This document shows positions 5,845 through 29,937 of a stretch of DNA of 32,392 bases, piece after piece. The notes under the pieces are model-generated. The model was given only the letters and a program-made list of their open reading frames with translations, searched no databases and was not told where the DNA came from. The stretch spans positions 1-32,392 of the forward strand of contig VGBK01000013.1 of NCBI GenBank assembly GCA_016870535.1, read 5' to 3'. Both the position numbers and the translations under genes were made by a program. The stretch's first letter is position 1. Each line of letters starts with the position of its first letter. Source of the DNA: Actinomycetota bacterium (GTDB lineage: Bacteria; Actinomycetota; Acidimicrobiia; Spongiisociales; UBA11373).

Positions 5845-6876
5845 ATGCGGAGCAAGGTCGCCTGCGCCTTGGCCCTGTTGATCGTGGGCAATCTCGCCGT
5901 GCCGGCCGGCGCCTCCATCCGGACGGGGGCGGTGATCAAGGGGACCGTGACCGACGCGGTCACCGGAAAGCCCTTCCCCGCCGGCTACACCGTCGGGGTG
6001 GACGTCTTCGAGACCGGCACCCTGGCCCGCACCCGGGTGTGGATCGGGGATCCCGCCGGTAAGTACCAGATCACCGGCCTGCCCGCCGGGCAGTACAAGG
6101 TGCGGTTCCGGGTCTGGGACGGGTCGGACCGCTTGATCCGGTACCGCTGGCACAACAACCGGCCGACCTTTGCCGCCGCCACCGCAGTCACCGTCGGCAC
6201 CGGCGCCACCGTCACCATCAACGGGAGCCTCTCCACCTTCGCCGGCGCCGCCGTCTCGGGCAAGGTCACCGAAAGGGGGACGGGGCTGCCCCTGGGCGCC
6301 AGCGGCTGCATCTTCGTCGAGCTGTTCGAGGCGAGCGGTATCTCGATGGGGGTTCTCAACGGCGTTGAACCCGACGGTACCTGGCGATTGCTCGGCAAGG
6401 CACCGGCGGGGTCCTGGGCTGCTCTCGCCGGATACTGGAAGTTCGTCGGCGGCTGCGAGCAGGGGCCCACCCACCTCGACACCTGGAGAGGCGGGGCCTC
6501 GGGCTACCCCCTGCACCCCGACGACGCCAGCGCCGACCCGGTGACTTTCGCCACCGCGAAGCGCTTCACGGTCGTCGCCGGCACGCCCCTGGGCAACATC
6601 AACCTGTCGATGCCGCCGGCCCCCACCTGCCGCGGCAAGACCCCGACCATCTTCGGCACCACCCTGGCCGACAACATCGTGGGGACTTCCGGCCGCGACA
6701 TCATCAGCGGCCTCGCCGGCGACGACACCATCAAAGGCTTGGGAGGCAACGACCTCCTGTGCGGTGACGAAGGGAACGACCGCCTCTACGGCGGCCCCGG
6801 CGTCGACGTCGCCGACGGGGGGCCGGGTTCGAACGACATCTGCGTCGCCGAAACCGTGTTCCGCTGCGAGTCGTGA
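5845..6876 (+). CDS. Secreted CnaB-like/RTX-repeat protein
   Basis: The 343-residue product has a signal peptide (residues 1-24, VPAGAS at the cleavage site). Two beta-sandwich modules of the carboxypeptidase-regulatory/CnaB kind follow: the first at about residues 30-100 (IKGTVTDAVTGKPFPAGYTV, then YQITGLPAGQYKVRF), the second at about 130-225 (VSGKVTERGTGLPLGA). The C-terminal ~80 residues carry about six RTX nonapeptides (GDDTIKGLGGNDLLCG and neighbours) and end in DIC-AETVFRC, a pair of Cys that may form a disulfide. It is probably a surface or matrix protein stabilised by Ca2+. The ATG follows GGAGGA. It is convergent with the next RTX gene. Confidence 0.85.
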   Translation: MRSKVACALALLIVGNLAVPAGASIRTGAVIKGTVTDAVTGKPFPAGYTVGVDVFETGTLARTRVWIGDPAGKYQITGLPAGQYKVRFRVWDGSDRLIRYRWHNNRPTFAAATAVTVGTGATVTINGSLSTFAGAAVSGKVTERGTGLPLGASGCIFVELFEASGISMGVLNGVEPDGTWRLLGKAPAGSWAALAGYWKFVGGCEQGPTHLDTWRGGASGYPLHPDDASADPVTFATAKRFTVVAGTPLGNINLSMPPAPTCRGKTPTIFGTTLADNIVGTSGRDIISGLAGDDTIKGLGGNDLLCGDEGNDRLYGGPGVDVADGGPGSNDICVAETVFRCES

Positions 6877-9433: not shown

Positions 9434-10189
9434 GTGGCCGTCGTCGAGATCCGCTGCTACGCCGAACTGAACGACTTCCTCGCGCCCGCCCGTCGGCAGC
9501 GGCCCTTCGACTACTCGGTCGGTGCGAGAGCCGGCGTCAAGGACGCCCTGGAGGCCGCCGGAGTGCCTCACCCCGAGATCGACCTGATCCTGGTCAACGG
9601 CGAACCGGCTGGCTTCGACCGCCTCCTGGCCCCAGGCGACCGGGTGGCCGCCTACCCCCGGTTCCGCCGCCTGGAGGTGGGCGCCATCTCGCCCGTCCAC
9701 CTGCCCGCGCCGGGCGTGTGGCGCTTCGTCCTCGACGGCCATCTGGGGCGCCTGGCCCGCCATCTCCGCCTGCTGGGATTCGACGCGGCCCACCGGCCGG
9801 AGACGGAAGACGCCGATCTGGCCGCAGCCGCCGCCACCGGCGACCGCGTCCTCCTCACCCGGGACCTGGGCTTGCTGAAGCGAGGGGTGGTGCGCCGCGG
9901 CTACCGCGTTCGGCGCACCGACCCCTTCGAGCAGGTGGTCGAGGTGATCCGGCACTTCGACCTGGCCGGCCGCACCGACCCCTTCGCCCGCTGCCTGCCC
10001 TGCGGCGAGACGCTGGCGTCCACCGACACCGAGCAGGCGGCCGCCCGGGTGCCGCCCGGGGTCGCCGACCGCCACACCGACTACCGGCACTGCCCGCGGT
10101 GCGGCCGCCTGTACTGGCGAGGAACCCACTACGCCCGCCTCCTGGCGCTGGTGGAGAGGGTACGCGCCGCAGTTGCCGCTCCCGACTGA
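9434..10189 (+). CDS. Mut7-C RNase-domain protein with ubiquitin-like N-terminus
   Basis: The 251-residue product has two parts. Residues 1-80 form a MoaD/ubiquitin-like fold (the Mut7-C ubiquitin family) without a terminal Gly-Gly. Residues 95-245 form the Mut7-C RNase domain, a PIN-like fold with acidic residues at D101, D127 and D144 (LLTRDLGLL) and a zinc ribbon C187-x2-C190 with C220-x2-C223. The family is predicted to cut RNA, perhaps rRNA or tRNA; the target is not known. GTG start with GGGAGC upstream. malQ follows after 37 nt but has its own promoter-like box. Confidence 0.9.
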   Translation: MAVVEIRCYAELNDFLAPARRQRPFDYSVGARAGVKDALEAAGVPHPEIDLILVNGEPAGFDRLLAPGDRVAAYPRFRRLEVGAISPVHLPAPGVWRFVLDGHLGRLARHLRLLGFDAAHRPETEDADLAAAAATGDRVLLTRDLGLLKRGVVRRGYRVRRTDPFEQVVEVIRHFDLAGRTDPFARCLPCGETLASTDTEQAAARVPPGVADRHTDYRHCPRCGRLYWRGTHYARLLALVERVRAAVAAPD

Positions 10190-17272: not shown

Positions 17273-18058
17273 ATGAGCCTGCTGGACAAGTTCCGCCTGG
17301 ACGGCCGGGTCGTGCTGATACCGGGCGGGGGCGGCGGGATCGGATCGGTACTGGCTTGCGGCCTGGCTTCGGTCGGGGCCGACGTGGTGATCATCGAACG
17401 CACCCGTGAGCTGGGAGAGCCGGCCGCCGAGAAGGTGCGCGCCGCGGGCTGCCGCTCCCTGACCGTAGCCGGGGACATGACCAAGGAGGAGGACGCCGAT
17501 CGGGCGATCGCCGAGACCCTGGCCGAGCTCGGGCGGCTCGACGTCATCATCAACGCCATCGGCGGCGGGGCGGGCAAGGTGCTCTATCCGGCCCACGAGT
17601 ACCCCCGTGATGCCTGGGACTGGATCTTCGAGCTCAACATCCGCGCCAACCTGCTGCCCACCCAGGCGGCGGTGCGGGCCATGATCGCCGCCGGGAACGG
17701 CGGCCGGGTGCTCAACATCTCCTCGGTCCGCGCCGCCCTCGGGATCAACGCCGGCTACTCCGCCTACGTGGCGGCCAAGGGCGCCATCAGTTCCCTGACC
17801 CGGCAGATGGCCACGGAGTGGGCGCCCTACAACATCACGGTGAATGCCATCGCCCCGACCTTCGTCGATACTCCGCAGGTGGCCATGTTGCTGGAGGATC
17901 CCGCCTTCAAGCAGGGCGTGGTGGCGCGCATCCCGCTGGCCCGGGTGGGAACGCCCGAGGATCTGGTGGGCGCGGTGCTGTTCTTCTGCTCCGACGCCTC
18001 GTCGTTCGTCACCGGGCAGATCCTGCACATCGACGGCGGCCTGACCGCCACCCAATGA
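17273..18058 (+). CDS. SDR-family NAD(P)-dependent oxidoreductase
   Basis: The 261-residue product is a classical short-chain dehydrogenase. Catalytic residues are Ser151 (NISSVRA), Tyr165 and Lys169 (YSAYVAAK). PTFVDT and the C-terminal VTGQILHIDGG are typical. The nucleotide loop reads PGGGGGIG (17-24), so the usual Thr/Ser before the glycines is Pro. VIIERTRE (39-46) has an acidic residue after the second strand, which favours NAD over NADP. It probably oxidises or reduces a hydroxyl of the operon's substrate. ATG with AGAGGAAGAG upstream. Confidence 0.93.
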   Translation: MSLLDKFRLDGRVVLIPGGGGGIGSVLACGLASVGADVVIIERTRELGEPAAEKVRAAGCRSLTVAGDMTKEEDADRAIAETLAELGRLDVIINAIGGGAGKVLYPAHEYPRDAWDWIFELNIRANLLPTQAAVRAMIAAGNGGRVLNISSVRAALGINAGYSAYVAAKGAISSLTRQMATEWAPYNITVNAIAPTFVDTPQVAMLLEDPAFKQGVVARIPLARVGTPEDLVGAVLFFCSDASSFVTGQILHIDGGLTATQ

Positions 18059-18101
18059 GCAACCGAGCGCCGGAAACGGTAGGAAGAGAGATCAGGCGAC
18101 C

Positions 18102-18965
18102 ATGCAGCAAGTGACGCCCCGCGTCTTCACCGACACCACCATGCGGGGATGCAACCCCAGCTTCGTGGTCACCTCGGATGGGGTGGTGGTGATCGACACC
18201 CCGCAGCTGCCCACCCGGGCGGTGGCCATGCGGCGCCAGGCCGAAGCGCACGGGCCCGTCCGCTACCTGATCAACACCGAGCACCACGTCGATCACATCT
18301 TCGGCAACTACTACTTCCGCGGCGCGGGGCCGGTGATCGCCCACGTCGAAGTGGCGCGGAACTTCATGCTGAAGAGCCAGCACCCCAGCCCCTACGACTA
18401 CGCCCGCGAAGCCCTGCCCACCGACGATCCCGAAGGGGAGGCGATCTTCCCCGACGAGGACACCTACTTCCAGGATCCCAACCGGCCGGCGATCACCTTC
18501 ACCGAGGATCTCACCCTCCGGGTGGGCGGGCACACCTTCGAACTGCTGTTCACCCCGGGGCACACCGTGGGCCAGATCGCGGTGCACGTCCCCGAGGAGC
18601 GGGTGGTCTTCACCGGTGACACCATCTTCTGCGAATGCCAGACCTGGCTCTACGTGTCGAACGTCGACCAATGGCTGGCCGCCCTCGAACGCATCCGCAC
18701 CCTCGACGTGGACCACATCGTCCCGGGCCACGGCCCGGTGACCACCCGCGCCTACGTGGACGTGCAGCGGGCTTTCCTGCTGGAGTGGGTCACCGCAGTG
18801 GCCACCGGGATCGCCCAGGGCTGGAGCAAGGAGGAGTGCCTCGCCCGCATCTCTTTCGCCGACCGCTACCCGGTGGACGTCGGCCAGGAGTACATGATGG
18901 ACCACATCCAGCGGGAGAACGTGGCCGCCCTCTACGACAAACTGGCGGCCGGCATCCGGCCCTAG
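18102..18965 (+). CDS. MBL-fold metallohydrolase with variant zinc site
   Basis: The 287-residue product has the metallo-beta-lactamase fold. The main motif reads EHHVDH (60-65) where most members have HxHxDH, so the first ligand is Glu60; H62, D64 and H65 are kept. The remaining ligands are present in TPGHTVG, FTGDTIF and VPGHGP. It is probably a lactone, ester or thioester hydrolase in the pathway. A single-metal centre or an altered metal is possible; Glu at this position also occurs in other, less studied MBL proteins, from memory. ATG follows TAGGAAGAGAG. Confidence 0.88.
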   Translation: MQQVTPRVFTDTTMRGCNPSFVVTSDGVVVIDTPQLPTRAVAMRRQAEAHGPVRYLINTEHHVDHIFGNYYFRGAGPVIAHVEVARNFMLKSQHPSPYDYAREALPTDDPEGEAIFPDEDTYFQDPNRPAITFTEDLTLRVGGHTFELLFTPGHTVGQIAVHVPEERVVFTGDTIFCECQTWLYVSNVDQWLAALERIRTLDVDHIVPGHGPVTTRAYVDVQRAFLLEWVTAVATGIAQGWSKEECLARISFADRYPVDVGQEYMMDHIQRENVAALYDKLAAGIRP

Positions 18966-20291: not shown

Positions 20292-21182
20292 TCAGACCAC
20301 GGCCAGGGGGTCGATCATCGACCCGGTCGCACCGCGGATCTTCAACGGCAGCGCCACGAAGAGAAACTCGTACACCCGCTCCCGGGCCAGCTCCTCCAGG
20401 TAGAGGCTCTCCATCAGGTAGATCCCGTGCTCGATGAGCAGTCGGACGTGCACCGGCTGCGGGTTGGCCGGCACCCCGCGATCGGGAGCCGGCTGCACCT
20501 CGTAGGTCTCGGTGTCGGTGCCGGTGGCGATGACGCCTCGCTCCAGCAGCCACTCCGCCGCCGACAGATCGGGGCCGGCGGTCCGGTGCTCCGCCATGGC
20601 GGCGGCGTCGGGCCAGTACTTCAGATAGCCGGTGCGGATCAGCACCACGTCCCAGGGGCGCACCTCGACGCCCTGCGCCGCAGCCACGGCCTCCAACTCC
20701 TCTCCCCCCACCGGCTCACTCGCCGGCAAGGCGTCGAGGCCCCGGTGGGCGGGCGGGTCGAGCAGCACCCCCCGGGTGAAGAACGGGGGCAGCTTCTCGG
20801 CGTCGCCCAGGTTCGGACCCTTGTCGGTGAGGTGCTCGGCGGTATTGCCCCCGCCGTACCAGTGGTTGTCGGGGCCCACCGTCATGTGGGCCAGGGCATC
20901 GATGTGGGCGCCGGAATGCGCCGTGGCCAGCAGGTACTCCGCCATGTAGCCCAGGCCGACCTCGTTGGGCGGCCCCCAGGGCTGCTCCTGTGCCGCCCTG
21001 ATGCCCTCCGGGGTGCGGTACATGACGACCTGGAAGGGGGGATGCCCGGGGAACAGAGGCATCCCCGGGTAGCGCCCCACCGACAGCGAGAAGGCCCGCC
21101 CCGTCTGCACCAGGCGCGCCGCCTCGACCAGTTTGGCCGGCGGGATGTCGCCCGCCGGGCCGACCTCACGGTAGGTGCTCAT
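20292..21182 (-). CDS. Cyclase-family (kynurenine-formamidase-like) hydrolase
   Basis: The 296-residue metal-dependent hydrolase carries the family motif HSGAHIDALAHM (HxGxHxDxxxH), which binds Zn or Mn. Relatives hydrolyse N-formylkynurenine, isatin or other cyclic amides and lactones, so ring opening or deformylation of the product of the neighbouring molybdenum hydroxylase is a reasonable guess. The ATG overlaps the stop of the hydroxylase large subunit (ATGA), which means coupled translation. Last gene of operon 2. Confidence 0.9.
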   Translation of the reverse strand: MSTYREVGPAGDIPPAKLVEAARLVQTGRAFSLSVGRYPGMPLFPGHPPFQVVMYRTPEGIRAAQEQPWGPPNEVGLGYMAEYLLATAHSGAHIDALAHMTVGPDNHWYGGGNTAEHLTDKGPNLGDAEKLPPFFTRGVLLDPPAHRGLDALPASEPVGGEELEAVAAAQGVEVRPWDVVLIRTGYLKYWPDAAAMAEHRTAGPDLSAAEWLLERGVIATGTDTETYEVQPAPDRGVPANPQPVHVRLLIEHGIYLMESLYLEELARERVYEFLFVALPLKIRGATGSMIDPLAVV

Positions 21183-23428
21183 TTCCCGTCCCTCATGGCT
21201 CGCCATACTCTTTCGGGCGAGAGCGGCAGGTCGCGAATGGCGATTCCTATGGCATCGCGCACCGCGGCGCCCAGGGCGGGGGCCACGCAGAGAATGCTGC
21301 CCTCGCTGACCCCCTTGGCCCCGTAGGGACCGGGGCCGTCGCCGTTCTCGACCTGCTCGCTGATCAACTCGAGCGGCAGGTCCTTGCTGGTGGGAATGCG
21401 GTAGTCGATGGCGCCCAGATTCCGCACCCGTCCGGCATCGTCGAAGATGTAGTGCTCCATCATGGCGTGGCCGAGGCCCATGATCGCCGCCCCGTCGTCC
21501 TGGCCCCTCACCTGCATGGGGTTCAGCGACTTGCCGGTGTCCCCCACCGTCACGTGGCGCAGTACGGTCAGCTCGCCGGTTCCCGGGTCCACCTGCACTT
21601 CGATCGCGGTGCAGTTGAACTCGAAGAACGCCGCCGTGCCCTGCAGCGGGTGGTCGGGGACGGCATCCTTCCGCCCGATCCCGTTGCCCACGTACTCGCC
21701 GCCCATCTTGCCCAGGCCGGCCTTGGCCACTTCGACGAGGGAGAGCTCCTCGCCGGTCAGGCGCACCACGCCGCGGTCCACGGTGACGGCCGCCTCGTCG
21801 ACACCGTACCGATGGGCCGCCACCGACCGCAGCTGTCCCTGAATGTCCCGGCAGGCGTTCAGCACCGCGGTCCCCATGATGACCGTGGAGCGGCTCGCCG
21901 AGGTCTGCTGGTCGTACGGCACCACCGAAGTGTCGCCCATGACCACCGACACTCGGTCCACCGCCACCCCCATCTCCTCGGCGGCGATCTGAGCGAAGAC
22001 GGTGCGCGCGCCCTGGCCCATGTCGGAAGTGCCGGAGAACACGATGACGCTGCCGTCGCCCAGCAGGCGCACGGTGGCATAGGAGAGGCCCGTAGTAGGT
22101 CCGGACTTGGCCGCCACGGCTATACCGCGCCCGCAGTGCGGCGGCATCGGCTTGCCCCAGTCGATGAGCTCCGCCGCCCGGCGCACCGTCTGCTCCCAGC
22201 GCCCGTCGGCCGGGGTGTCGCCGGGAACGAACTCCTCCTGGTAGCGCGCCAGGTTGCGCAGGCGGATCTCCAGGCAGTCGATGCCCAGTGCCAGGGCGCA
22301 TTCGTCCAGGTTCATCTCCCGGGCCCAGGCGGTCTCCGGCACCCCGAAGCCCCGCATGGCGGTCGCCGGCGGGGTGTTGGAGAGGATGCCGCGGGCGATG
22401 ATGCGCACCGCCGGCACCCGGTAGGGCCCGGCGGCCAGGTAGTTGCCCTTGCTCACCACCCGGTCGGCGATGTCGGCGTAGGCCCCTACCAGGAAGTTGC
22501 TTTCGATGTCCTGGAAGACCAGGGTGCCGTCGCTCTTCACCCCGGTCCGGATCCGGACCTCGGCCGAGGTGCGGCGCACCTGCTGGAAGACCTCCTCGAG
22601 CGTCAGGACCAGCCGCACCGGACGGCCCAGCTTGAGGGCCATGAAGGCCAGCAGCGGCTGGATGTTGGGCCACTGCTTGCCCCCGAAGCCCCCACCCAGA
22701 TCGGGGGCGATGACCCGCACCTTGGAGAGCGGCAGGCCCAGCGCCTTGGCCAGGATCTTCTGCAGCTGGAAGGGGTGCTGGTTGGTGCTCCACACCACCA
22801 CCCCGTCGCCGTCGGGGGCGGCCACGCAGGCATGCGGCTCGATGGCGAAGTGGGTCACCATCGGGTACGCGTAGCGGTTCTCGACGATCAGATCGGCGGC
22901 GGAGGCGGCGGCCTCTACATCTCCCCAGCCGAAGCGGTGCTCCGCGAACTTGTTGGTGTTCGCCAGCGGGTCGCCGGCACGCCGGATCGCCGGATCCTGG
23001 ACGAGGAAGGCATCGGGGGCCAGAGCCGCGTCCACGGTGAAGATGGCGGGCAGCTCTTCGTACTCCACCTTCACCAACCGGGCCCCCTCCTCTGCCGCCT
23101 CCTTGGTCTCGGCCGCCACCGCGGCGACGAACTCGCCGTGGTAGTTCACCCGGCCTGCTGCCAGAACGGGACGGTCGGAAGCGTGAGGGCCGAAGCGAGG
23201 CACCGGCTGAGGGAGGTCGTCGGCAGTCATCACGAAGCGCACGCCCGGCACCGCCTCGGCGGCGCTCTTGTCGACGGAGAGGATCCGGGCCCGGGCGCAA
23301 TCGAGATGGACCAGTTTCACCTGGAGGGCGTCGGCCACCTTGATGTCGGCCACGTACTGCTGGCCTCCGGTGACCCGGCTCAGGCCGCCGGTGCGGGGGA
23401 AGTCGGCCCCGATGGTCTCGGCGTTCAT
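21179..23428 (-). CDS. Molybdenum hydroxylase, large (molybdopterin) subunit
   Basis: The 749-residue product belongs to the xanthine dehydrogenase/aldehyde oxidase family. It hydroxylates a carbon centre using water; the substrate is unknown. Seen are the aldehyde-oxidase hammerhead N-terminus, DLGGGFGGKQ (molybdopterin contact), ATAMRGFGVPE, GTSDMGQGA and the catalytic Glu709 in GAKGVSEG. Most relatives have GVGE, so one Gly is Ser here. There is no AYxCSFR loop, so it is not a CO dehydrogenase. The ATG overlaps the stop of the small subunit by 4 nt. No XdhC or CoxD/E/F-type maturation gene is in the window. Confidence 0.95.
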   Translation of the reverse strand: MNAETIGADFPRTGGLSRVTGGQQYVADIKVADALQVKLVHLDCARARILSVDKSAAEAVPGVRFVMTADDLPQPVPRFGPHASDRPVLAAGRVNYHGEFVAAVAAETKEAAEEGARLVKVEYEELPAIFTVDAALAPDAFLVQDPAIRRAGDPLANTNKFAEHRFGWGDVEAAASAADLIVENRYAYPMVTHFAIEPHACVAAPDGDGVVVWSTNQHPFQLQKILAKALGLPLSKVRVIAPDLGGGFGGKQWPNIQPLLAFMALKLGRPVRLVLTLEEVFQQVRRTSAEVRIRTGVKSDGTLVFQDIESNFLVGAYADIADRVVSKGNYLAAGPYRVPAVRIIARGILSNTPPATAMRGFGVPETAWAREMNLDECALALGIDCLEIRLRNLARYQEEFVPGDTPADGRWEQTVRRAAELIDWGKPMPPHCGRGIAVAAKSGPTTGLSYATVRLLGDGSVIVFSGTSDMGQGARTVFAQIAAEEMGVAVDRVSVVMGDTSVVPYDQQTSASRSTVIMGTAVLNACRDIQGQLRSVAAHRYGVDEAAVTVDRGVVRLTGEELSLVEVAKAGLGKMGGEYVGNGIGRKDAVPDHPLQGTAAFFEFNCTAIEVQVDPGTGELTVLRHVTVGDTGKSLNPMQVRGQDDGAAIMGLGHAMMEHYIFDDAGRVRNLGAIDYRIPTSKDLPLELISEQVENGDGPGPYGAKGVSEGSILCVAPALGAAVRDAIGIAIRDLPLSPERVWRAMRDGK

Positions 23429-23901
23429 CCGCCCACCTCCTCGGCGGCGGCCAGGACGGCCTCGGTGATCTGCTCGTACCCGGCGCAGCGGCACAGGTTG
23501 CCGGCCAGCGCCTCGTGCACCTCGGCGGCGGCCGGATGCGGGTTCTCGAGGAGCAGGCCGTGGGCCGACATGAGCTGCCCCGGTATGCAGAAGCCGCACT
23601 GTGCCGACCCGTGCTCGAGGAAAGCCCGCTGCAGGGGGCCGGGACGGCCTCCCGCGGCCAGGCCTTCCACCGTCAGCACCTCGCCGCCATCGGCCTCGAC
23701 CGCCAGCATGAGGCAGGAGTTCACCGTGCGGCCGTCGACGATCACGGTGCAGGCGCCGCACTCCCCGACCACACAGCACTCCTTGGTGCCGGTGAGGCCG
23801 AGGTCGTCGCGCAGGAAGTCGAGCAGCGTGCGGTACACGGGCACATCCACCTGGTAGCGCTGCCCGTTCACCTTGAGGTCGATGGGGAACCGGTCGTTCA
23901 T
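23425..23901 (-). CDS. Molybdenum hydroxylase, small [2Fe-2S] subunit
   Basis: The 158-residue product binds two [2Fe-2S] clusters: the plant-ferredoxin type with C43, C48, C51 and C63 (VVGECGACTV) and the helical type with C102, C105, C137 and C139 (QCGFCIPGQ, LAGNLCRCAGY). It passes electrons from the molybdenum site to FAD. All eight Cys are present. ATG overlaps the stop of the FAD subunit by one base (TGATG), which fixes the start although the frame is open further upstream. Confidence 0.96.
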   Translation of the reverse strand: MNDRFPIDLKVNGQRYQVDVPVYRTLLDFLRDDLGLTGTKECCVVGECGACTVIVDGRTVNSCLMLAVEADGGEVLTVEGLAAGGRPGPLQRAFLEHGSAQCGFCIPGQLMSAHGLLLENPHPAAAEVHEALAGNLCRCAGYEQITEAVLAAAEEVGG

Positions 23902-24767
23902 CAAGCCATTCCCTTCGCCAGTCGGTCGATCGCCGTCTGCAGGGCGCGCCGCCCGAGCACCCGCAGCATGGCCAGGCGGTACTCGGGCCCGGCGCGCATG
24001 GAGCGCGGCGAGGGGCTGGCCCCGGCCAGCATCTCCTCCAGGATGGGAGCCTTGACTTCGTCCGGCGCCGCCGGGTCGGCGAGGACTCCGCTCTCGTCGC
24101 ACACCAGCACCGGGCGCGGCCCGACGCTGCCGTAGGCGAGCCGGGTGACCCCGGCCCCGTCCACCCCGGCGCACATGGTGACCGACGCCAGGTCGGTGCC
24201 CCGCCGCCGGGTGAGCCGGGTGTAGGCCGAGCCCATGCGCCCGGCCGGCAGGGGCAGTTCGATGCCGGTGACCAGCGAGCCGGCGGGCAGGGTGGTCTGC
24301 CGCGAGCGCACGAAGAAGTCGTTGATGGGGATGCGCCGCTCCCCGTCCGGGCCCACCGCCAGCACCACCGCCCCATACACCAGCAGCGGGGGGGCGGTGT
24401 CGGCCGCCGGGGAGGCGTTGCAGATGTTCCCCACCACGGTGGCCCGGTTGCGGATCTGCACCGAGCCCACCCAGGAAGCCGCCTCGGCCAGCGCCGGGAA
24501 GTGCCGGAGCACTTCGGCATCTCGCTCGACGTCCCGCATGACGGTGGTGGCGCCGAGGCACAGATGGCCGTCTTCCCGCCTGATGGCCGGGCTCAGCCCG
24601 GTGACCCGCTTCAGGTCGATGACCACGGTGGGGCGGAGCGATCCGTTGCGCAAGGCGATCACCAGATCGGTGCCGCCGGCCAGGAGGTGCGCCCCCGAGC
24701 CGTGCTCGGCGAGAAGGGCCAGGGCCTCGGGAATCGACTCCGGGCGGGCGTAGGCGAAGGCCTGCAT
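23901..24767 (-). CDS. Molybdenum hydroxylase, FAD-binding (medium) subunit
   Basis: The 288-residue product has the two FAD motifs of the CoxM/XdhB group: LLAGGTDLV (28-36) and ATVVGNICNASPAAD (109-123). The C-terminal CO-dehydrogenase flavoprotein domain follows. It accepts electrons from the iron-sulfur subunit and passes them to NAD or quinone. Gene order M-S-L is that of many three-subunit hydroxylases. The start lies one base after the stop of the HprK-like gene, so these proteins are made together. Confidence 0.95.
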   Translation of the reverse strand: MQAFAYARPESIPEALALLAEHGSGAHLLAGGTDLVIALRNGSLRPTVVIDLKRVTGLSPAIRREDGHLCLGATTVMRDVERDAEVLRHFPALAEAASWVGSVQIRNRATVVGNICNASPAADTAPPLLVYGAVVLAVGPDGERRIPINDFFVRSRQTTLPAGSLVTGIELPLPAGRMGSAYTRLTRRRGTDLASVTMCAGVDGAGVTRLAYGSVGPRPVLVCDESGVLADPAAPDEVKAPILEEMLAGASPSPRSMRAGPEYRLAMLRVLGRRALQTAIDRLAKGMA

Positions 24768-24768
24768 C

Positions 24769-25650
24769 TCAGATCACCCGATCGGCCTCATCCATGAGCA
24801 CTTGCGGAGTGGCGGCGCGGATGAGGAAGTACGGGCGAGTGCAGAACCTCTCCAGGAAGGCCGCCCGCCGCCGGCGCAGTTCGTCGGTGTCCATCAGGGG
24901 CATGGGCCAGCCGGGAGCCAGCAACTCGTTCAAGTGCAGGTAGTTCTGGAGGGAATGCAGGGTCTGGAACTGCCGCTCGAAGGGGATCATCTCGACCGTG
25001 CCCGGGGCGTAGTTCCCGTCGATGGAGGGGACGATCACCACCTCCATGTCTGCCGGGTCGAGGTGCTCCACCATGGCCGGCATCTCGGCGCCGAAGAACT
25101 TCTGGGCCCCGGCCTCGGGCGAGGCTTTGTCGGCGCGCTCGGTGCCCTTGGCGCGGGACTTCAGGAACACCGTCTTGGAGCCGGCCACGGCCACGCCGGA
25201 CTCATCGATCACGGTCGTCTCGGTCGAGATCAGCCGGCCGCCGCGGCGGCAGGCCTCGATCTGGCTCATGCTCTTGCCGTGATTGGACTCGCCGCCCAGG
25301 AAGAGGACCCCCCGGCCCCGGTAGTGAACCGCCGAGGAGTGGAAGGGGTGCAGGCCCTGCTCCTCCATGCGCAGGGCGAGCAGCGCGACGATGGACTTCT
25401 GCAGCGGCCCGGGAGCCCAATCACCCTCGAAACGCAGCATCCGCCCGTCGTAGCGCACCGACGTGGCGCCGGCGTCGCGCTCCCACACCAGGTCGGGATC
25501 GCCCAGGGTCACCGGCTCCAGCCTCACGTCGGCGAGCCGGTAGTTGAGGAAGTCCATGTTCTCGAGAACGTGCTCGGGCACCTCGCCGCCCACGACATCG
25601 ACGCGGATCCGGGCCGGACCCGCGGACATCTGTTCCGATAGCTGGCCCAT
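24769..25650 (-). CDS. HprK-like P-loop protein
   Basis: The 293-residue product has a Walker A motif GESNHGKS (120-127) preceded by HPFHSSAVHYRGRGVLFLGG, the context seen in HPr kinase/phosphorylase-like and PEPCK-like P-loop domains (LHASAV...G.GVLL.G.SG.GKS). After it comes GGRLISTETTVIDESGVAV, matching the strand where HprK has SDD; here the Asp pair is replaced by TET. An N-terminal ~80-residue domain and a C-terminal helical part are not recognised. ATG follows AAGGAGAGCGA. It lies between the regulator and the hydroxylase genes. It may phosphorylate a partner such as the swivel-domain protein encoded nearby, or serve hydroxylase assembly; neither is shown. Confidence 0.8.
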   Translation of the reverse strand: MGQLSEQMSAGPARIRVDVVGGEVPEHVLENMDFLNYRLADVRLEPVTLGDPDLVWERDAGATSVRYDGRMLRFEGDWAPGPLQKSIVALLALRMEEQGLHPFHSSAVHYRGRGVLFLGGESNHGKSMSQIEACRRGGRLISTETTVIDESGVAVAGSKTVFLKSRAKGTERADKASPEAGAQKFFGAEMPAMVEHLDPADMEVVIVPSIDGNYAPGTVEMIPFERQFQTLHSLQNYLHLNELLAPGWPMPLMDTDELRRRRAAFLERFCTRPYFLIRAATPQVLMDEADRVI

Positions 25651-25673
25651 TCGCTCTCCTTGCCTTGGCGGGC

Positions 25674-26387
25674 TCAATCGTCCGTTACCGAGCGGCGATC
25701 GGGGAGGCGGTCGCCGTCGGAGAGGTGCTCCAGGAGCCCGGAAGCCTCCACCGCGTGGTCGCGGAGCGCCACCGCCGCTCGCTCCGGGTCGCGGGCCCGG
25801 AGAGCCTCAATGATGGTGAGGTGCCGCTCCCCGAGCCAGCGCAGGTCGATGCCGGGGAGGGTGGCGGTGACGTAGGTGCGCCCGAGGGGCTCGAGCAGAT
25901 TCCACAGCCGGGCAAGAGAACGGTTCCCCGCCGCCTCCACGATGGTGGCGTGGAACTCGGTGTTCTCCACGGCTTGCTGGTGGGCGTCGCCGCGCGCCGC
26001 GGCGCCCGCCATGTCGTCGATCAGGGAGCCGAGCCGTTCCAGGCAGCCGTCGGTGATCTGCGGCGCCGCCAGTCGGCCGGCCAGCGCCTCCAGTTCACCG
26101 CGTACCACGATGGCCTCCCGCAACTCCCCCACGCTGGGGCTGCGCACCCGGGAGCCCTGGTAGGGCTGGATCTCCACGAATCCCAAGGTGGCCAGGTCGC
26201 GCAGCGCCTCCCGCACCGGCGCCTGGCTGGTCCCGAGGCGGCGGGCCACCCGGGTCTCGACGATGCGAGACCCGGGGGCCAGCTCTCCTTCCAGGATCCA
26301 CTGCAGGATCCGGTCCTTGACCCGCGCCGACAGCACCTGCCGGGCGATGGGCTCCGCTTCCCGGTCCAGACGGTGGATCTGGGTCAT
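25674..26387 (-). CDS. GntR-family regulator, FCD (FadR) subgroup
   Basis: The 237-residue product has an N-terminal winged helix (about residues 15-82; VARRLGTSQAPVREALRDL is the recognition part) and an all-helical FCD ligand domain. The FCD metal site has H146, H189 and H211, but the Asp that usually precedes FH is Asn142 (NTEFH), which could change metal or ligand binding. It is the only regulator in the window and lies inside operon 2, 10 nt after the PEP-utilising gene. It probably represses all three operons through the CTCGATAATCGAT palindromes and is released by a pathway acid. Confidence 0.93.
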   Translation of the reverse strand: MTQIHRLDREAEPIARQVLSARVKDRILQWILEGELAPGSRIVETRVARRLGTSQAPVREALRDLATLGFVEIQPYQGSRVRSPSVGELREAIVVRGELEALAGRLAAPQITDGCLERLGSLIDDMAGAAARGDAHQQAVENTEFHATIVEAAGNRSLARLWNLLEPLGRTYVTATLPGIDLRWLGERHLTIIEALRARDPERAAVALRDHAVEASGLLEHLSDGDRLPDRRSVTDD

Positions 26388-26397
26388 CTGCTCCTGC

Positions 26398-28134
26398 CTA
26401 CTTCAGGATCTCGACCAGGCCGGTCGACCCGTTCACGCGGATCCGGTCGCCGTCCTTGATCCGCTGCGTGCCCACGCTGGACCCGACCACCGCCGGGATG
26501 CCGAACTCGCGGCTCAGCACTCCGGGGTGCGACACCGGGCCGCCGGCGTCGGTGACCAGGCCGGCGATCTTGGTGAACAGGGTCACCCAGGCCGGGTTGG
26601 TCATCTGGCAGACGAGGATGTCGCCCTTCTCGACCTTGTCGAACTCGTCGATGGTCAGCACCACCTTGGCGATGCCCTCGACCACGCCGGGCGACGCCGC
26701 CAGGCCCTGCACCGTGTCGGCCGTCTCGGACTGCTCGATGTAGAGCTTCTCGGGGAAGCCCCACAGGCCCAGGTACGGGAAGGCCAACTGCGACTCGGTG
26801 GCCGTGCCGATCCAGTCCCGCGGCTTGATCTTCTCGGCCTCCTTGTAGGCGGCCCGAGCCGCGCCCACCAGGGACTTGGCGTCGAAGGTGGGGTCGCCGA
26901 TCAGGTAGCGGAGCTGGTTGTACCGGAGGTACATGACGTCCTCCGGATCGTCGAGCAGGCCGGCCTGCACCAGCTTCTTCCCGATGCAGATCAGCACCAG
27001 GCGCAGGTGGGCGTTGGTGCTCTGGTCGATGTAGAAGTGGTGGTCGGGGGTGAGGGGGGCCATCTTCAGGTTGATGGCGTTGGCCGCCTCCACCTTGGCC
27101 CGAGCCTCGCCTTCCAGGCCCTCCACCAGTTCGGCGCAGGCCTTCTTGATGTCCTCAGCCAGGCCCTTGACGTGCGAGGGGTAGTCGTAGTCGGTCTCGA
27201 TGTAGCCCTTCACCGTCTCCAGGAACGGCGCGGGGTTCTCGAACTGCGTCGGGAAGGTGAACTCGTGCACCCACACCGCCGCCCAGCCGAACTCCCGCTG
27301 GTAAGGCCGGATGTGCTCGGCGATGAACTTGCGGCCCCGCTCGGTCTGCTCCAGGGCGGCCATGACCGCGCTGCCGGACTCGGCCTTGAAGGCCTCGGTC
27401 AGGACGGCGTCGCCCTTGATCTCCTCCTTCATCTTCCAGAGAGCCTCGATGCGATCCCAGTTGCGGTCGTTGGCCGAGTTCTGCAGCCGGCCGAGGAGAG
27501 CGGAGTCGACCTCGCCGCGGGCCTCCTGCACGACGGCCTGCAGGCCCATCGTTCCCGAGAACTGGGCGAAGTTGAGCATCCAGTGGATCTTCCAGTGGCG
27601 ATCGTGGATGTCCATGGCGTCCTCGAGGATGGTCGCCCACTCCAGGAGATCGATGCTCTCCCAGTTGTCGATCTTCGCCTCGAGGTAGTCGAAGTTGCGC
27701 TTGATCTCGGGGACCAGGCGATTCCGCCACCAGCCGTCGAACTCGCGGCCGTAGACCGGCAGCACCGAGCCCAGGTAGGGGCCGATCTTGCCCGGATAGC
27801 CGGGATCGGTCACCGGAACCCGCGCCCGATAGACGTTGCCGTACTCCTCGCCGTCCACCAGGCAGTCGGCGTCGGCGGGGATGGCGGCGGTGTAGAGGTA
27901 GCCGTTGACGTTCTTGGCGATCCAGTCCGCCGCGAACGGCGTACCGAAACGGCGGAACATGTGGTCGCAGGTGAGCCACCACCCGCCGATGTCGAAGTAC
28001 ATGGGCGACAGCGGGTGCGGGCAGTGCAGGTCGTCGTAGACCCAGAAGAGCTGCTTCTCCGCTTCGCTATCCCACTTGACGGGGAAGCTCTCGTCTCCCA
28101 AGAACTGCTTGATTACCTTGCTCGTGTCGGCCAT
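26398..28134 (-). CDS. PEP-utilising-enzyme-like protein without ATP-grasp domain
   Basis: The 578-residue product ends with a phosphohistidine swivel domain: TDAGGPVSHPGVLSREFGIP (528-547), with His536 the expected phosphate carrier, preceded by GLAASPGVVEGIAKVV. The ~480 residues before it are helical and resemble the substrate-binding part of rifampin phosphotransferase or phenylphosphate synthase. There is neither an N-terminal ATP-grasp domain nor the PEP-binding barrel of PpdK/PpsA. A partner must therefore load the His, as in two-subunit phenylphosphate synthase, but no ATP-grasp gene is in the window. ATG follows AAAGGAG. The target compound is unknown. Confidence 0.85.
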   Translation of the reverse strand: MADTSKVIKQFLGDESFPVKWDSEAEKQLFWVYDDLHCPHPLSPMYFDIGGWWLTCDHMFRRFGTPFAADWIAKNVNGYLYTAAIPADADCLVDGEEYGNVYRARVPVTDPGYPGKIGPYLGSVLPVYGREFDGWWRNRLVPEIKRNFDYLEAKIDNWESIDLLEWATILEDAMDIHDRHWKIHWMLNFAQFSGTMGLQAVVQEARGEVDSALLGRLQNSANDRNWDRIEALWKMKEEIKGDAVLTEAFKAESGSAVMAALEQTERGRKFIAEHIRPYQREFGWAAVWVHEFTFPTQFENPAPFLETVKGYIETDYDYPSHVKGLAEDIKKACAELVEGLEGEARAKVEAANAINLKMAPLTPDHHFYIDQSTNAHLRLVLICIGKKLVQAGLLDDPEDVMYLRYNQLRYLIGDPTFDAKSLVGAARAAYKEAEKIKPRDWIGTATESQLAFPYLGLWGFPEKLYIEQSETADTVQGLAASPGVVEGIAKVVLTIDEFDKVEKGDILVCQMTNPAWVTLFTKIAGLVTDAGGPVSHPGVLSREFGIPAVVGSSVGTQRIKDGDRIRVNGSTGLVEILK

Positions 28135-28220: not shown

Positions 28221-28354
28221 CCTTAGGGGCCTAGCGGATAGGCGGTGGGCTTCGCCCGCTGTCTGGTCTGTTCCGCCCGAAGAAGCTGCGCCTTCGGGCG
28301 GGGGTCCGGCGGATGGGGCTCGCTCCGCTCGCCCAATCCGCGCGGCCCCTTAGG
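28221..28354 (-). repeat. 120-bp structured element, copy B
   Basis: The core (28228-28347) lies between two CCTTAGG heptamers (28221-28227 and 28348-28354). On the minus strand it matches copy A (425-544) at about 116 of 120 positions. Ends are imperfect inverted repeats (GGCCGCGCGGAT and ATCCGCTAGGCC). It forms the 3' end of the Tm-1-like coding region and provides its stop codon, so insertion into, or capture by, the gene is visible directly. Confidence 0.85.
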
Positions 28355-29611
28355 CTCCGTTGCCGATCCCTGCTGCTCGCTCTGCCGTCTCTCGACCCAC
28401 GCCCGGTAGTGCTCATCCAGGCGGGCCGCCATCGCCCCGGCGAACTCCGGGGCGTTGATGTGGGTGTCCATCTCGACCACCTCGACGGCAGCGGCGAGGG
28501 CGCCCTTCAAGCCGCCCACCAGGGCAGCATCGGCGGCCGGGTCGTGGAACACCTCGCCCTCCACTCCGATGGCCGAGAAGCCCCGCAGCGGCAGAAACAC
28601 GGTGAGGGGTCCCGACGCCCGGTTCAGCCTATCTGCCATGATCCGTCCGAGTGCGGCGCACTCCTCCACACTGGTCCGCATGAGAGTGACCGCCGGGTTG
28701 TGCCGGTAGAACCGGCGGCCCCGGAACCGTTCCGGCACGGTGTCGGGCGGTCCGAAGTTGACCATGTCTGCGGCTCCCGGAGCCACCACCTGGGGCAGGC
28801 CGAGCCTGCCGGCCACCTCGAGCCGACGCGGCCCGGCGGACCCCAGCCCACCCACCAGTTCATCGGCCAATTCCGCTGCGGTGACGTCCAGCACCCCGGT
28901 GATCAGGCCCGCCTCCATCAGTGCCTCCATGGCCTGACCCCCCGTGCCCGTGGCATGGAAGACGAGCACCTCGTACCCGCGCTCCTCCAGCCAGTGGCGG
29001 GCGGTGGCCACCGCGGGGGTGGTGTTCCCGAACATGGTGGCGCCGAGGGTCGCCTTGCCTGCGAGTCGCGGCACGAATCCCTGGTGGTGGCGAGCCATGC
29101 CGGCGGCGGCCGCGGCGGCATTCCCCAGAATGCGCTCCGACACGGCGTTGACCCCGGCGATGTCGGTGACGGCGGGCATCATGACCAGGTCGGAGGTGCC
29201 CACATAGGCGCGGGTGTTGCCCGATGCCAGGGTGGAGACGAGGAGCTTGGGCACCCCGAGGGGCAGGTCGCGCACCGCCCGGGTGAAGAGCGACGAACCG
29301 CCCGAGCCTCCCATCCCAAAGGCGCAGTGGAGGCGCCCTTCGGCGTGAAGCCGGAGCAGGACTGCGGCCGCCCCGTTCCCCATGACCTCCACCGCCGCGC
29401 CGCGATCGCCGGCGGCGGCGAGGCCGGCACGATCACGACCGGCGGCCCGGGCCACCTCATCGGCCGTCACCTCGGGTGTCAAGAGCGGCGGCCCCACGAT
29501 GCCGGCATCCACCACCACCACCTCGCAGCCGGCCGCTCGCAGTCCCTCGGCGACGAAGGCGAACTCCCGTCCCTTGGTGTCCATCGTCCCGACGAGCACC
29601 ACCGTGGCCAC
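28223..29611 (-). CDS. Tm-1-like/UPF0261 ATP-binding protein with repeat-derived tail
   Basis: The 462-residue product begins TVVLVGTMDTKGREFAFV, the start of UPF0261 (the N-terminal half of plant Tm-1), with GMGGSGGSS and ASGNTRAYVGTSDL in the ATP-binding region. Its bacterial role is unknown; the usual partner, a PEP-hydrolase-like TIM barrel, is not adjacent. The GTG at 29611 is chosen because the family starts there and GAAGGG precedes it; the open frame extends to 29713 but has no family match. The family part ends near residue 415. Residues 420-462 are translated from repeat copy B. First gene of operon 2. Confidence 0.85.
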   Translation of the reverse strand: MATVVLVGTMDTKGREFAFVAEGLRAAGCEVVVVDAGIVGPPLLTPEVTADEVARAAGRDRAGLAAAGDRGAAVEVMGNGAAAVLLRLHAEGRLHCAFGMGGSGGSSLFTRAVRDLPLGVPKLLVSTLASGNTRAYVGTSDLVMMPAVTDIAGVNAVSERILGNAAAAAAGMARHHQGFVPRLAGKATLGATMFGNTTPAVATARHWLEERGYEVLVFHATGTGGQAMEALMEAGLITGVLDVTAAELADELVGGLGSAGPRRLEVAGRLGLPQVVAPGAADMVNFGPPDTVPERFRGRRFYRHNPAVTLMRTSVEECAALGRIMADRLNRASGPLTVFLPLRGFSAIGVEGEVFHDPAADAALVGGLKGALAAAVEVVEMDTHINAPEFAGAMAARLDEHYRAWVERRQSEQQGSATEPKGPRGLGERSEPHPPDPRPKAQLLRAEQTRQRAKPTAYPLGP

Positions 29612-29937
29612 GACTACCCTTCTCCCCGCCGGCGCCGGGCTCTTCCCGACGCCGGCACGAGGAAGGGGCGCGCGCCCGAACCGGGCGGCCTCCGGCCCGG
29701 CGGGAGGTGGCACGACGCCATCACTAGGGAATCGCCTCCTCTCGCTCCGCCACGGGCGGCTATCCTCGATAATCGATTGAAGACTACCACCACGGAGGCT
29801 CCCCTGCCCATGCCCGAGCGTCGTACACCCCGGGCGGCCGTCGATCCCGAGGACGGCGTGATGGCTGCCACCCGAGGGCGGCGCGACGGCGACGGCAGGA
29901 GGGCTCTCCCCCCGAGCGCCGGAAGGGGTATCGCTTG
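29612..29937. promoter_or_regulatory. Divergent spacer between operons 2 and 3
   Basis: This 326-bp stretch separates the Tm-1-like gene (-) from the E1 alpha gene (+). It holds the operator-like palindrome at 29765-29777. TATCCT (29761-29766) could be a plus-strand -10, but no -35 fits. The part from 29810 is open as a 42-codon reading frame. Confidence 0.6.
29765..29777. promoter_or_regulatory. Operator-like palindrome, site 2
   Basis: CTCGATAATCGAT is identical to site 1. It is about 150 nt before the Tm-1-like start and about 160 nt before the E1 alpha start, so one site could control both divergent operons. Confidence 0.62.

Follow-up and report, generated by a model that had tools for sequence, protein, structure and literature searches.

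How is the histidine of a swivel domain phosphorylated when its protein lacks the parts that usually charge it? Swivel-histidine enzymes, namely phosphoenolpyruvate (PEP) synthase, PPDK, rifampin phosphotransferase (RPH), and phenylphosphate synthase, receive their phosphate through ATP-grasp domains or from PEP. The question is raised by contig VGBK01000013.1 of an Actinomycetota bacterium (assembly GCA_016870535.1), a stretch of 32,392 nucleotides that was analyzed at its full length and is called the window here. The contig is number 13 in a draft genome of 2.57 Mb that is 96% complete. The window encodes a swivel-histidine protein and, with one gene between them, a P-loop protein of the PEPCK/HprK fold. 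Our favored explanation, to which we assign a probability of roughly 0.55, is that a two-component dikinase exchanged its ATP-grasp subunit for this P-loop kinase, which uses ATP to phosphorylate the swivel histidine. We place direct charging by the P-loop protein no higher than this because a further protein, PPDK-short, is a possible alternative donor. The features on which the argument turns are as follows.

26398..28134, minus strand: swivel-histidine protein with an RPH-like substrate-binding region (N-terminal and central) and a C-terminal phosphohistidine domain (PF00391, RPH profile, model match to 5fbu)
26419..26631, minus strand: phosphohistidine (swivel) domain PF00391 (Pfam)
26527..26529, minus strand: codon of the catalytic His536 in GGPVSHPG (invariant across 50 homologues)
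24769..25677, minus strand: PEPCK/HprK-fold P-loop protein, the proposed phosphoryl donor subunit (model, profiles, homologue alignment)
25270..25296, minus strand: Walker A motif GGESNHGKS of the P-loop protein (GGESNHGK unchanged in 47 homologues, followed by S or T)

The swivel protein has 578 residues and a single significant Pfam domain, PF00391 (residues 502 to 572, E 3.5e-22). Neither a PPDK_N ATP-grasp domain nor a PEP barrel was detected in it with Pfam, and the preliminary description of this locus was right on both the presence and the absences. His536 lies within a conserved GGxxxH pattern and is unchanged in 50/50 homologues. A profile built from these homologues matches RPH across 367 residues that include the rifampin-binding and swivel domains (E 1e-52). 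Likewise, the AlphaFold model (predicted local distance difference test [pLDDT] 91, predicted template modeling score [pTM] 0.91) has rifampin phosphotransferase 5fbu as its top Foldseek match (E 1e-19, query template modeling score 0.65). Because both profile and model match RPH, we interpret the protein as the acceptor/carrier half of an RPH-type dikinase, whose ATP-grasp half is located in the same chain in RPH but is missing here. The swivel domain is also homologous to that of PPDK and PEP synthase, although these enzymes differ in having an ATP-grasp domain and a PEP/pyruvate barrel. The family is only about 27 to 30% identical to the two-component paralogues of related genomes, and ordinary pairs of that type, with a lone ATP-grasp protein, coexist in the same or related genomes (L043:6651-10778, L209:7588-11830, and L080). 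In one Chloroflexota clade that has lost the P-loop gene (L117, L122, and L128), the SHPAV motif of the swivel is replaced by a PPDK-like GGLTSHAAVL.

The P-loop protein has 302 residues and 47 homologues at ≥59% identity. Its open reading frame (ORF) has a TTG start that overlaps gntR by 4 bp, and the true start is likely a conserved ATG at position 25650. Matches to HPr kinase profiles are below threshold, both for Pfam Hpr_kinase_C (E 0.023, 14.6 bits versus a cut-off of 33.3) and for NCBIfam TIGR00679 (15.4 versus 240), and the P-loop proteins of 5/17 relatives have a subthreshold match to Pfam PEPCK_ATP. The AlphaFold model (pLDDT 92, pTM 0.90) is closest in Foldseek to ATP-PEPCK 1ayl (E 8e-9, probability 1.0), followed by HprK (E 1e-4). 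The protein is thus assigned, from profile and model comparisons, to the PEPCK/HprK P-loop superfamily. The label "HPr-kinase type" used in the preliminary description holds at that level; PEPCK is nearer, and a single gene separates the P-loop and swivel genes. HprK and PEPCK share a family in a published kinase classification (PMC1079889).

A weak profile alignment pairs K84, H103, K125, S126, and E143 of the P-loop protein with K213, H232, K254, T255, and D269 of Escherichia coli PEPCK (residue numbers follow A4; add 10 for ORF numbering). K213, H232, and D269 make up the metal site of PEPCK. Across the 47 homologues K84, H103, K125, and E143 are unchanged, and position 126 always carries a hydroxyl residue (S/T). 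The PEPCK substrate residues Y207 and K212 are replaced by Ala78 and Gln83. Because the residues equivalent to K213, H232, and K254 are kept and those equivalent to Y207 and K212 are not, the protein appears to be a functional nucleotide-dependent phosphotransferase whose acceptor has changed, a view that draws on the agreement of fold and motif. It differs further from ATP-PEPCK in being about half as long and in having no sign of a carboxykinase substrate site, and no carboxylase genes were seen with the P-loop/swivel cluster. HprK, for its part, is also a kinase of a phosphocarrier protein, but its target is a serine of HPr, whereas the target proposed here is the swivel histidine. A search of 396 genomes across the phylum recovered only the host genome and two marginal matches, and therefore the family is narrow.

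The distribution of the two genes links them firmly. Most of the genomes compared are metagenome-assembled genomes, and in relatives a close swivel protein was counted at ≥60% identity. Among 149 related genomes, 22 encode the swivel protein, 20 encode the P-loop protein, and 19 encode both, such that the P-loop gene occurs in 19/22 genomes with the swivel versus 1/127 of the others. The sole relative with only the P-loop gene, G043, is 56% complete. Similarly, in the Chloroflexota class of CSP1-4 (177 genomes), 54 genomes have the swivel, 50 have the P-loop gene, and 49 have both (49/54 versus 1/123). Fisher tests give p values of 6e-20 and 1e-36 for the two groups, although the tests assume independent genomes, an assumption that does not hold here. 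The co-occurrence on which the preliminary description had staked its proposal is thus clear.

A second line of evidence comes from genomes that carry the swivel without the P-loop gene. In all three such relatives (G022, G091, and G119), an intact ORF for a lone PPDK_N ATP-grasp protein occupies the slot of the P-loop gene. It lies directly after the swivel gene or GntR, and in G022 and G091 the coxM-like gene comes next after it. In a set of 80 loci taken from named genome records, the P-loop gene accompanies the swivel in 41 and a lone ATP-grasp gene does so in 17; no locus has both, and 22 have neither. The partner gene, of whichever type, is on the same strand and ≤2.2 kb downstream of the swivel gene in 54/58 cases. 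Six of the 22 partnerless loci have a P-loop gene elsewhere in the same genome, four Acidimicrobiia loci among the 22 (L111, L131, L139, and L155) come from genomes with a P-loop gene elsewhere, and for L151 a lone ATP-grasp gene lies on another contig. The remaining partnerless loci mostly carry the PPDK-like protein PPDK-short.

The preliminary description considered a stand-alone ATP-grasp partner as the alternative to the P-loop protein. Such a partner does co-occur with the swivel, but only in genomes without the P-loop gene and never alongside it (0/58), and this mutual exclusion is therefore evidence for replacement. The suggested PpsB-like gene elsewhere in the host genome was searched for and not found; both of its PPDK_N proteins are fused to swivel domains. 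Nor was a lone ATP-grasp gene found in the near-complete P-loop genomes G008 (97%) and G024 (95%), which have PPDK only. We accordingly rejected a distant ATP-grasp partner. Three further sets of candidates were also set aside. The lone ATP-grasp proteins of the P-loop genomes G553 and G536 adjoin, and belong with, their own, different swivel proteins. Matches flagged as having one internal stop are not disrupted genes, since the ORFs in L059 and L061 are intact (315 and 313 amino acids) and the profile merely overruns the stop. Weak matches of 28 to 65 bits in 26 loci correspond to the fused PPDK-like protein.

Phylogenetic trees suggest the direction of change. In a swivel tree with paralogous swivels as the outgroup, the ATP-grasp forms (Pseudomonadota, Thermogemmatispora, Rubrobacteraceae, and others) branch at the base, and all P-loop forms fall in one nested clade (100/100) that includes the three ATP-grasp-type Acidimicrobiia. 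The ATP-grasp tree follows the swivel tree, and both put these three Acidimicrobiia next to the Chloroflexota ATP-grasp L127, an agreement that would suit old co-inheritance. Because the ATP-grasp forms are basal and the trees are congruent, the ATP-grasp protein is likely the ancestral partner. At least two changes between partners are needed.

The genes around the pair give a metabolic setting. On the minus strand, the operon order is UPF0261/Tm-1-like, swivel, GntR/FCD, P-loop, coxM, coxS, coxL, and PF04199 cyclase.

25674..26387, minus strand: GntR/FCD regulator between the swivel and P-loop genes (Pfam)
23901..24767, minus strand: coxM-like flavin adenine dinucleotide subunit of a molybdenum hydroxylase, next after the P-loop gene (Pfam, relatives' loci)
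20292..24561, minus strand: coxS-like and coxL-like subunits and a PF04199 cyclase/hydrolase (Pfam; order conserved in relatives)
28223..29713, minus strand: UPF0261/Tm-1-like protein, upstream of and on the same strand as the swivel gene (Pfam; only partly conserved in the cluster)
17273..18962, plus strand: short-chain dehydrogenase and metallo-beta-lactamase-fold hydrolase (similar genes near ATP-grasp-type and P-loop-type clusters elsewhere)

The GntR gene is missing in some loci (L060 and L062), where the P-loop and swivel genes are direct neighbors. Dehydrogenase and metallo-beta-lactamase-fold genes like those of the window are also found in L059, L061, and L105. Because these genes and the cox genes recur around both the P-loop and the ATP-grasp forms, the pathway is apparently the same, with the power unit alone differing. 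Two ATP-grasp-type clusters contain genes of the histidine phosphatase superfamily (L135:19841-20581 and L158:8946-9629), which possibly encode a phosphatase for the phosphorylated intermediate of the pathway. Elsewhere in the window are two proteins with RTX calcium-binding nonapeptide repeats (1400-2692 and 5845-6873) and a Mut7-C RNase domain fused with a ubiquitin-like Mut7-C domain (9434-10186).

Two-component dikinases with this division of labor have been described, namely PpsAB (phenylphosphate synthase), HpeHI, and CreHI, and HpeH consists of the swivel and rifampin-binding domains of RPH (PMC12167813). The system of the window resembles them in having a separate substrate and swivel subunit, a conserved phosphohistidine, a separate ATP-using subunit, and a catabolic cluster, but its ATP-using subunit is a P-loop protein of the PEPCK/HprK fold, whereas theirs is an ATP-grasp protein. 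The ATP-grasp-type homologues that we found are new members of this kind, and in the P-loop variant the ATP-using subunit has a changed fold.

In the mechanism that we propose, the swivel and P-loop proteins would be the two subunits of a small-molecule phosphotransferase and would presumably meet in a physical complex. The RPH-like domain of the swivel protein would bind the substrate, and His536 would carry the phosphate. Ancestrally, a separate PPDK_N ATP-grasp subunit would have charged the swivel histidine, as in PpsAB and HpeHI, a form that persists in Pseudomonadota, Thermogemmatispora, Rubrobacteraceae, and a family of the order to which the window belongs. An unrelated kinase of the PEPCK/HprK superfamily would then have displaced the ATP-grasp gene in the lineage of the window. 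This kinase most likely phosphorylates His536 from ATP, and by analogy with PEPCK and HprK it would transfer the gamma phosphate, leaving ADP. The phosphorylated product may then be metabolized by the neighboring molybdenum hydroxylase and hydrolases. The reaction of PpsAB and HpeHI converts ATP to AMP and Pi, with the beta phosphate passed via the histidine. We consider it an even bet that the P-loop kinase puts the gamma phosphate directly on the swivel histidine, such that swapping a whole subunit changed an ancestral dikinase that yields AMP from ATP into a kinase that yields ADP. Co-occurrence and positional replacement strongly support the original proposal that the P-loop protein works for the swivel, and the direct transfer to His536 is the step that we infer.

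Several observations weigh against replacement by the P-loop kinase. The match of its model to the global fold of known structures is partial (TM <0.5), and sequence similarity between its family and PEPCK is weak (profile searches at E 0.009 and E 0.01). In the weak alignment with PEPCK, the equivalent of D269 is an invariant Glu and that of D268 is a Thr, with which catalysis seems plausible but not certain. Furthermore, PPDK-short is encoded in the window's own genome, and it also co-occurs with the swivel, both in Chloroflexota (47/54, p 1e-31) and among the relatives (13/22, p 3e-11). At least five Chloroflexota loci (L109, L117, L122, L128, and L141) have lost the P-loop gene while keeping the swivel and PPDK-short.

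G000:C1:70078-72213 (the same as L051:4079-6214, in the window's own genome): PPDK-short
L105:17024-19165: PPDK-short

PPDK-short has about 720 amino acids, with an ATP-grasp domain, its own swivel domain, and a C-terminal region of about 240 amino acids of unassigned function, and it has no PEP barrel. It is nearly confined to genomes with the swivel protein. One explanation, which we regard as unlikely yet the most serious of the rivals, is that PPDK-short took over from the lone ATP-grasp protein as donor in this lineage, with the P-loop protein doing something else in the pathway. The PPDK-short gene lies right behind coxL in the Chloroflexota operon, and neither the three ATP-grasp-type relatives nor any of the 17 ATP-grasp-type loci carry it. 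However, PPDK-short was not detected in the near-complete P-loop genomes G008 and G024, and seven Chloroflexota genomes with both the swivel and P-loop genes likewise gave no match to it. In addition, it already has a swivel domain of its own, and the slot of the ATP-grasp gene is occupied by the P-loop gene rather than by PPDK-short. PPDK-short might serve the pathway as another dikinase or act as an alternative donor.

There is a small chance that the P-loop protein phosphorylates a different small-molecule intermediate of the pathway, such that co-occurrence reflects only a shared pathway. Small-molecule phosphotransferases exist among PEPCK-fold enzymes, and the catabolic setting, with its molybdenum hydroxylase, cyclase, metallo-hydrolase, and dehydrogenase genes, would accommodate one. 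Yet the same pathway genes surround ATP-grasp-type clusters of the same order (L059 and L061) that have no P-loop protein, and a separate P-loop step would leave the swivel of G008 and G024 without a charger.

Slightly less probable still is a regulatory role, in which the P-loop protein would act as a kinase/phosphorylase turning the swivel protein or PPDK-short on and off, comparable to PPDK regulatory protein (PDRP) or HprK, the latter being a regulatory kinase. In PPDK and PEP synthase, phosphorylation of a Thr located two residues N-terminal of the catalytic His regulates the enzyme (PMC12167813). In the window this Thr is replaced by Val534, it is missing in most P-loop-type swivels, and 6/24 of those tested have no Ser/Thr at either of the two positions preceding the His (VA). 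A PDRP-like switch at the position before the catalytic His is therefore unlikely, and neither mutual exclusion with the ATP-grasp subunit nor occupation of its slot is expected of a regulator. Finally, the Tm-1-like protein, whose gene is present as previously described and which had been named as a third candidate donor, is not credible in that role, with UPF0261 linked in just 19/80 loci.

In our literature search, no paper described a swivel domain as the target of a P-loop or HprK-like kinase; most subscription papers fell outside this search, and novelty is thus provisional. If replacement by the P-loop kinase is correct, a histidine-phosphorylating activity would exist within the PEPCK/HprK superfamily, and a histidine-directed phosphotransferase of that fold would be new. 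The energy cost of the reaction would fall from two phosphoanhydride bonds to one. Because both forms occur in one bacterial order, with P-loop-type and ATP-grasp-type swivel proteins that are 64 to 72% identical, subunit-swap experiments are directly possible. More broadly, the swivel and substrate module would be a portable acceptor that can be re-powered.

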